Below the pieces are notes generated by a model, which did no database searches, was not told the DNA's origin, and was given only the letters and a program-made list of their open reading frames with translations. DNA of 64,000 nt from Candidatus Bathyarchaeia archaeon. GTDB taxonomy: Archaea; Thermoproteota; Bathyarchaeia; Bathyarchaeales; Bathycorpusculaceae. Both the position numbers and the translations under genes were made by a program. Positions within the stretch are counted from its first letter, which is position 1; each line of letters opens with the position of its first letter. Positions 5,665 through 34,599 of the stretch are shown in pieces. The stretch spans positions 1,263,507 to 1,327,506 of the forward strand of contig CP166960.1 in assembly GCA_041447175.1 (NCBI GenBank), given 5' to 3'.

Positions 5665-5690
5665 AAAAAAAGCCGGGTAGGTAAGCTACC
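5665..5690 (-). terminator. hairpin plus T-tract after the PNPOx-family gene
   Basis: On the minus strand a GGTAG/CTACC stem with a 5-nt loop (5690-5676) is followed by CCGGC and seven T (5671-5665). It lies just past the stop of the FMN-type gene and upstream of the predicted C/D sRNA, so it may end the first transcript. It overlaps the two-copy element described at 5675-5717. Confidence 0.45.
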
Positions 5691-5717
5691 TTTCCGATAG
5701 ACCCCTTCCCCTCTACG
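5675..5717. other. conserved two-copy element, copy A
   Basis: A 43-nt stretch that aligns with 34495-34536 at 34 of 43 columns with one gap. Shared blocks are GGGTAG, AGCTA, CCGATAGACC and CCCTCTACG. A GGTAG-loop-CTACC hairpin is present; in copy B the same stem keeps pairing through a C-to-T change that gives G-U. The single-base indel argues against a coding origin. Both copies are followed by five or six T on the plus strand, and both lie 3' of a minus-strand gene. Orientation is unresolved. Confidence 0.5.
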
Positions 5718-6186
5718 CTTTTTCCCCGAACTTTACCATTTTTTTAGGCTCAAAATTGGTTGCCCAAGTCCAAGTGTACGCTTCACCCTTTGCGATGCGG
5801 AAAATAACCAGCCCCGGACTGGAAGCCGTTATGCCCATGGTTTTCAGAAAAGGCCTGTCCGCAACAACCTTTTCGCGCATATTTGGCGTGTCAAGAAACT
5901 CCACTTCACCCGTAACCCGCAGCATGATGCCGCCTTCGGTTTTGTTGTTAAACCAGCAGACTTCCGTTTTGGGGTTCTTCTTCAACTGCCCAACCAACTC
6001 TTTAACGGTTCCTGACTGGAAATAGAAGCCCGTTTCATCCGCATACCACATGGCTAACGCACGTACCCGGGGTTGCCCTTTCTCGTCAACCGTAGCTAGG
6101 TAGGCAACAGGGTTTTCATTAGCAAACTTTACACACTCTTCAAAATTCAACGCAAACACCTCATGTTCTTTTGAAGGCTGACACAT
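5713..6186 (-). CDS. pyridoxamine 5'-phosphate oxidase family (FMN split-barrel) protein
   Basis: The segments PVAYLATVDEKGQPRVRALAM, FYFQSGTVKELVGQLKKNP and TEVCWFNNKTEGGIMLRVTG are the strands of the PNPOx-like FMN-binding split barrel. At about 157 residues it is the short stand-alone form seen in many archaea and bacteria, whose members bind flavin or F420. True PNP oxidase function is not implied. The ATG at 6186 was chosen because the family fold begins shortly after it; the frame runs 26 codons further upstream into non-family sequence. A TATA-like CATTTAAAC lies near 6250-6261. The stop codon overlaps the end of the conserved element at 5675-5717. Confidence 0.82.
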   Translation of the reverse strand: MCQPSKEHEVFALNFEECVKFANENPVAYLATVDEKGQPRVRALAMWYADETGFYFQSGTVKELVGQLKKNPKTEVCWFNNKTEGGIMLRVTGEVEFLDTPNMREKVVADRPFLKTMGITASSPGLVIFRIAKGEAYTWTWATNFEPKKMVKFGEKA

Positions 6187-6388
6187 AAGAAACTTTCGAA
6201 AACAATCCCCTCCAACCGTCACGGCAAACACCTGAAGCGCCAAATTCACAAAGTTTAAATGCAACCCTATAATTCATATGAGGTTTCATCAGACTCTTGG
6301 ACTCACGCTTGGACATGAGAACCTTGACCAAGCAAAATCCACCGTCAGTCTGAGAAAAAGGACAGTTAACTAGGAGGTAGAAAAAAGA

Positions 6389-31385: not shown

Positions 31386-31550
31386 CTCCAAACAAACCCA
31401 CATACCAGCCCCACCAAATTCGGCATGAAAAGAAGACAAGGTTCTGGGTCGGGTTGCTTTGTTGAACCTATTTGGCGTCTATTTGGATGCTAATATTAAT
31501 TGTATGCAGAACCTATAGAGGGGAGGTCTACTCAACTGAACAAAATTTGA

Positions 31551-34494: not shown

Positions 34495-34536
34495 GGGTAG
34501 CTGAGCTATCACCCGATAGACCTCTATCCCTCTACG
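34495..34536. other. conserved two-copy element, copy B
   Basis: A 42-nt stretch matching 5675-5717 at 34 of 43 aligned columns. The segments GGTAG, CTATC, GATAG and CTATC follow one another with 4-5-nt spacers, so three mutually exclusive 5-bp hairpins can form. Six T follow on the plus strand (34538-34543). It lies about 65 bp past the stop of the minus-strand gene at 34600. Confidence 0.5.
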
Positions 34537-34599
34537 ATTTTTTAATACTGATCAGAAAAAGGAAGACGACAAAGGGGTTACAGGATGAAAGGCAGGCGA

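Follow-up and report, generated by a model that had tools for sequence, protein, structure and literature searches.

A modular, BOX-like family of dispersed intergenic repeats in one lineage of Bathyarchaeia, and its probable part in chromosome rearrangement

Two similar short sequences, copies A and B, found in 64,000 nucleotides of the chromosome of a Candidatus Bathyarchaeia archaeon (contig CP166960.1; the whole of this stretch is referred to as the window) are probably the F1 modules of composite, BOX-like, non-autonomous repeats that are dispersed through the intergenic DNA of a single lineage of Bathyarchaeia, at family level, and act as recombination substrates. The repeats form a family of mosaic build, lie between genes, have been gained and lost between relatives and, in one pair of genomes, are in excess at breaks of synteny. 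Their modules, F1, M and F2, with a TATA-like leader in a few relatives, occur alone or joined as F1-M-F2. We propose that an enzyme acting in trans may once have spread the copies, that the copies of today would mostly be passively inherited, and that pairs of copies could serve as recombination repeats by which chromosome segments are inverted or moved. Such an explanation would require no cellular function of the elements.

Copies A (5675-5717) and B (34495-34536) are identical in 34 of 43 alignment columns with one single-base gap, the same figures as were given in an earlier note made from the letters of the window. This similarity is far above chance and the two are not an accidental pair, because copy A alone, used as a BLAST query, matches 13 other sites (E 4e-11 to 4.8e-4) in its own genome (G000; a single contig of 2,733,033 bases, 2.73 Mb). 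A sequence-only profile, R1, built on 16 aligned F1 copies, gives 42 matches in G000 at E<0.003, a total that counts those 16 copies as well, and copy A is the top-scoring F1 of the genome. The earlier note had suggested a search of this genome and related ones, and would have abandoned its element had there been neither further copies nor conservation; the 42 matches and the copies in relatives described below are clearly the opposite outcome. A 'weaker relative' that it placed at 31516-31530 is real and forms the 5' edge of a copy of the second module, F2 (Table 1). A 62-base F2 query finds 37 sites in G000, one of them at this place in the window, and the F2 profile, R2, gives 48 matches in the genome.

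Table 1. Repeat modules located in the window by profile search (window positions; genome positions on the contig)
Feature	Position	Strand	Profile score	E value	Genome position	Sequence
Module F1, copy A	5675..5721	+	58.3 bits	1.8e-15	1269181-1269227	GGGTAGGTAAGCTACCTTTCCGATAGACCCCTTCCCCTCTACGCTTT
Module F1, copy B	34495..34540	+	36.5 bits	1.2e-8	1298001-1298046	
Module F2	31466..31527	-	67.8 bits	2e-19		CCCCTCTATAGGTTCTGCATACAATTAATATTAGCATCCAAATAGACGCCAAATAGG

F1 is a module of ~46 bp, GGTAGGTWRGCTACGTTTYNGATAGACCCCTNYCCCTCTACGYTTT, and its usual partner F2 one of ~65 bp, CCCCTCTATAGGTTCTGCATNNAATTGCTATTAGCATCCAAATAGRCGGCAAATAGG; the middle stretch M, read by eye, covers ~35 bp and is about CAACATGYTTTTGGNTTGAAAANNCGCCAATAGCG. 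Some F1 copies fuse into F2 and others are spaced from it by tens of base pairs, while each of the two also occurs solo. The order was F1-M-F2 in the copies read from the relatives G006 and G004, and F1-spacer-F2 in G000 and G029. F2 is present one to three times in tandem (two to three units at loci L184, L186, L187 and L199 and at C17:267218-267353), and truncated copies exist besides the mosaic and tandem ones. Two G004 copies share 97% identity over 304 bp and have different neighbours. In three long G004 copies (L064, L071, L076) a TATA-like palindrome, CCCCCTTATTTAAAGG, stands ~24 nt upstream of F1, and similar leaders lie ahead of other copies in G085, G081 and G029.

The closest known likeness is to the BOX elements of Streptococcus pneumoniae and S. 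suis, which passages of PMC3049150 describe as boxA-boxB(n)-boxC. By the same passages, BOX elements have distinct modules of ~50 nt, a tandem inner module of variable number and many intergenic copies, and no transposase of their own is known (PMC3049150). Several modules in fixed order and a tandem inner module (F2) that varies in number are also found here. The likeness is one of build, and no relation in sequence is claimed; in contrast to BOX, the present family belongs to an archaeal lineage, its solo modules are common, it has no conserved RNA fold and it is in excess at synteny breaks. Bathyarchaeia would gain a multicopy, modular family of dispersed repeats comparable to the BOX elements. 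Literature searches on interspersed repeats, repetitive elements and genome rearrangement in Bathyarchaeia or Bathyarchaeota returned no description of such a family.

Placement was examined in two whole blocks of G000 (800 kb), in which 87-89% of the DNA was called coding. Twenty-nine of the 31 module copies are intergenic and the remaining two share a single short ORF call; in a wider set, 41/45 F1 and 31/37 F2 copies lie between ORF calls. The gaps that bear elements are codirectional in 11 cases, divergent in six and convergent in five, where gap length predicts 11.9, 6.1 and 4.0, and there is accordingly no preference for gene orientation and no bias to 3' ends. The earlier note had placed both copies 3' of minus-strand genes, which is true of A and B and does not extend to the family, and it had called them non-coding. 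Both do lie outside the larger genes, although copy B is overlapped by one 84-aa ORF call and the last bases of copy A overlap the stop codon of a gene on the minus strand, at 5713-6264. The end of the reading frame of this gene, which has a PNPOx_N domain, is therefore supplied by the F1 module at 5675-5721. Elsewhere, F2 follows what is apparently the same tRNA gene in G000 (L050) and G006 (C2:289397), the tRNA having been identified by eye.

Alternatively, F1 could act as a small RNA, a 3' UTR element or a terminator, with a plus-strand transcript that ends at a conserved T-run and hairpins that regulate or terminate; a small RNA and a 3' UTR regulator were both readings of the earlier note. 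T-runs do follow A and B alike, as had been stated there, and the T-run is part of the F1 module itself (in alignment A5, columns 58-60 are T in every row with letters there). Since in addition TATA-like TTATTTAAAG stands about 24 nt ahead of F1 in three G004 copies, an F1 transcript is conceivable, and copy B folds better than most of its shuffles (z -2.4, 7/200 as good). Copy A, however, folds no better than its shuffles (z -0.24, 70/200 as good), and at the G000 copies no TATA-like box was noticed by eye at ~24 nt upstream. RNAalifold placed no pair in the F1 consensus, either with 16 or with 68 sequences, and none in that of F2 with 113. The 5-bp F1 stem, which had been thought to keep its pairing through a C-to-T change, is formed in 85.6% of cells, and shuffled alignments reach 85.5% (272/500 shuffles at least as high), so that it covaries no better than shuffles, and the F2 hairpin pairs in 75.8% against 79.0%. 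Rfam at its curated threshold found only a tRNA in the whole window and, at E<=5 over seven loci, nothing at the elements. Membership of a class of structured RNA, riboswitch or small RNA is not supported, as there is no conserved fold with covariation, and a 3' UTR regulator sits poorly with gene orientations that are those expected from intergenic length. We therefore regard a small RNA or terminator as unlikely.

Composite repeats that probably recombine remain our preferred explanation, and their distribution among relatives is patchy. Within the genus, R2, with 150 candidates scored in each genome and a limit of E<=0.01, counts F2 copies at 48 in G000, 70 in G001, 42 in G002, 45 in G003, 34 in G004 and 76 in G006, that is 34-76 in six of seven genomes, and at none in G005; of the other genomes scored, G026 has 5, G029 95 and G032 none. 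G005, which is 92% complete, has no F1 match either. F1 is rarer than F2, with matches in seven of 60 genomes searched, its own genome counted. In the family, 34 of 90 genomes carry F2 at E<=1e-4 (22 with at least 19 copies and 12 with 1-6; the other 56 have none), and as 57 candidates were scored per genome the high counts are lower bounds. At the level of the order F2 is matched in 37 of 162 genomes at E<=1e-5, four of the 37 being from beyond the family and having a single match apiece, and since R2 was trained mostly on this genus its 'absence' may in part be divergence. A scan of a genome collection with the exact F1 pattern returned one contig, JAOZHZ010000004.1 (Candidatus Bathyarchaeota archaeon isolate DYS_1), and viral contigs gave no match to this pattern. 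A viral origin was considered and dropped: the sole F2 pattern match, in the phage-like contig L129, is due to chance, and the profile finds nothing there.

Gain and loss can be seen at junctions that are otherwise collinear between G000 and G006. Some have an element in G006 only (C17 20844, 85810 and 239748) or in G000 only (1786518 and 2436723), and at two others both genomes have one. Another possibility is that the modules are binding sites of a single chromosome-organising or regulatory protein and are kept by selection, with breaks arising there through fragility or tethering. The strong conservation of the primary sequence, the intergenic placement and the conserved neighbours that several sites have in G000 and G006 would all fit with this. 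The patchy occurrence in the genus, with G005 devoid of copies, the mosaic, tandem and truncated copies and the gain and loss at collinear sites do not, and a conserved 45-65 bp is long for a single site, so that we hold this possibility to be improbable. What does agree with the dispersed intergenic copies, the patchy occurrence and the presence or absence at collinear sites is the suggestion, also in the earlier note, of a remnant of a small mobile element.

The putative mobilising enzyme was sought in G000. No match was obtained there to PF01797 (Y1_Tnp, RAYT), which is matched in 5/14 control genomes, or to PF07282 (TnpB), matched in 6/14, and these results argue against IS200/IS605, TnpB and RAYT as drivers. 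An all-against-all comparison of 331 ORFs from G000 pieces showed no multicopy ORF family beside the elements, so an autonomous parent element was rejected for these pieces. No terminal inverted repeats were clear by eye, the ends of the elements varying with module content, and in five aligned collinear pairs from G000 and G006 the flanking DNA has diverged too far for ends to be placed or a target duplication to be recognised. Transposition is therefore something that we infer, as no target-site duplication, clear terminal inverted repeat or autonomous copy was seen. Close relatives with dozens of copies and with none provide a comparison of gene presence and absence that could address what spreads such ownerless repeats.

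Correia, ERIC and RU elements are intergenic repeats of 100-170 bp, and inversion has been reported for Correia repeats. The present family differs from them in host domain and modular make-up. Like the REP/BIME sequences associated with RAYT, as outlined in passages of PMC3733652, it consists of short dispersed intergenic repeats, and F1 happens to contain GTAG; the F1 alignment, however, has no stable palindrome beside GTAG and G000 has no Y1_Tnp match. Membership of the REP/RAYT group thus fails both on the GTAG-tagged palindrome (68 F1 sequences) and on the Y1 transposase in G000, and membership of the IS200/IS605-TnpB (omega-RNA) group on the lack of a PF07282 match in G000. MITEs, including SM1-SM4 of Sulfolobus, are in the relevant passages of PMC10969869 likewise non-autonomous and present in tens of copies per genome, whereas here no clear terminal inverted repeats, target-site duplications or parent element were seen.

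The first hint of an association with rearrangement came from the flanking ORFs of six G006 F1 loci mapped to G000: at two of the six the neighbours map to separate places in G000, each beside an F element. A wider count used two 400-kb blocks of G000, fetched whole, and two contigs of G006 with 400 kb taken from each; elements were located with R1 and R2, and adjacent G006 gene pairs were classed as collinear or broken in G000. Matches had to reach 60% identity and 90 aa, gaps of more than 5 kb between neighbours were left out, and the collinear gap limit was 12 kb in the final count, widened from 6. The choice of the G000 blocks and of the second G006 contig was guided by breaks already known from the F1-locus mapping. 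At the G006 junction an element is present in 6/17 breaks and 6/275 collinear pairs (Fisher p=1.1e-5), and a G000 element lies at most 400 bp from the junction end in 7/17 breaks and 4/275 collinear pairs (p=1.7e-7); these p values are too optimistic because the 17 breaks are the ends of about seven events, as grouped by us. The second contig is no blind replicate, as one of its breaks, the second of the two cases from the F1 loci, had already come to light before it was picked; taken alone, it gives 2/11 breaks and 2/132 collinear pairs for an element at the G006 junction (p=0.03) and 3/11 and 3/132 for one at the G000 junction end (p=0.006). The counts on the whole blocks replace an earlier one (6/11 breaks, 5/149 collinear) that was biased by G000 DNA fetched near elements. 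The excess persists when gaps are limited to 20-2000 bp (elements at 5/12 breaks and 6/140 collinear pairs), although breaks and elements may still both favour permissive intergenic gaps. The elements may serve as a marker for the places at which chromosomes of Bathyarchaeia break and rejoin.

The clearest cases are a 10-kb inversion (G000 1586312-1596233), a 41-kb inversion (G000 2540005-2581471) whose two ends each have elements nearby in either genome, and a three-way exchange between places at 2427, 2463 and 2500 kb, each of which has an element in G000. The elements of the 41-kb inversion have retained their orientation relative to the segment that was inverted, an outcome not predicted by simple crossing-over between inverted copies. 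In crossover mapping over four break sets a single flank comparison, with a score of 21, surpassed all of 100 shuffles (best score 19) and none of the other flanks tested did so, and the mapping is thus suggestive at most.

The core of F2 consists of eight bases between 5-bp arms, CTATT-type and AATAG. After one duplicate site was dropped, the core reads AGCATCCA in 33/112 rows and its exact reverse complement, TGGATGCT, in 11/112, where 0.19 would be expected under independent columns. We infer that strand-switching at a small DNA hairpin is the likeliest source of this inversion and, as G000 supplies ten of the 11 inverted cores, a few events may account for them. The two orientations of the core, together with the clustering of synteny breaks at elements, would also be explained if F2 were the site of a putative site-specific recombinase, with the CTATT/AATAG arms around an 8-bp spacer and the rearrangements as its products. 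If this were so, the dozens of F2 sites per genome would amount to a dispersed system of inversion by which the chromosomes of Bathyarchaeia are reshaped. We consider such a recombinase very unlikely, however, as hairpin strand-switching also yields inverted cores, those observed come nearly all from one genome and perhaps from few events, and crossover points cannot be fixed within the elements.

Recombination between dispersed copies, the explanation that we prefer, does not extend to every junction. A cluster of six junctions at 213-278 kb of G006 C2 contains no R1 or R2 element, and another cause of rearrangement must therefore exist. This dense cluster matches 2368-2396, 2377-2382 and 2487-2489 kb of G000. 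Elsewhere on the same contig, at 60113-73186, four adjacent reading frames, each of some 850-950 aa, all have their matches (50-58% identity) in one pair of G000 regions and are probably a tandem family of paralogues.
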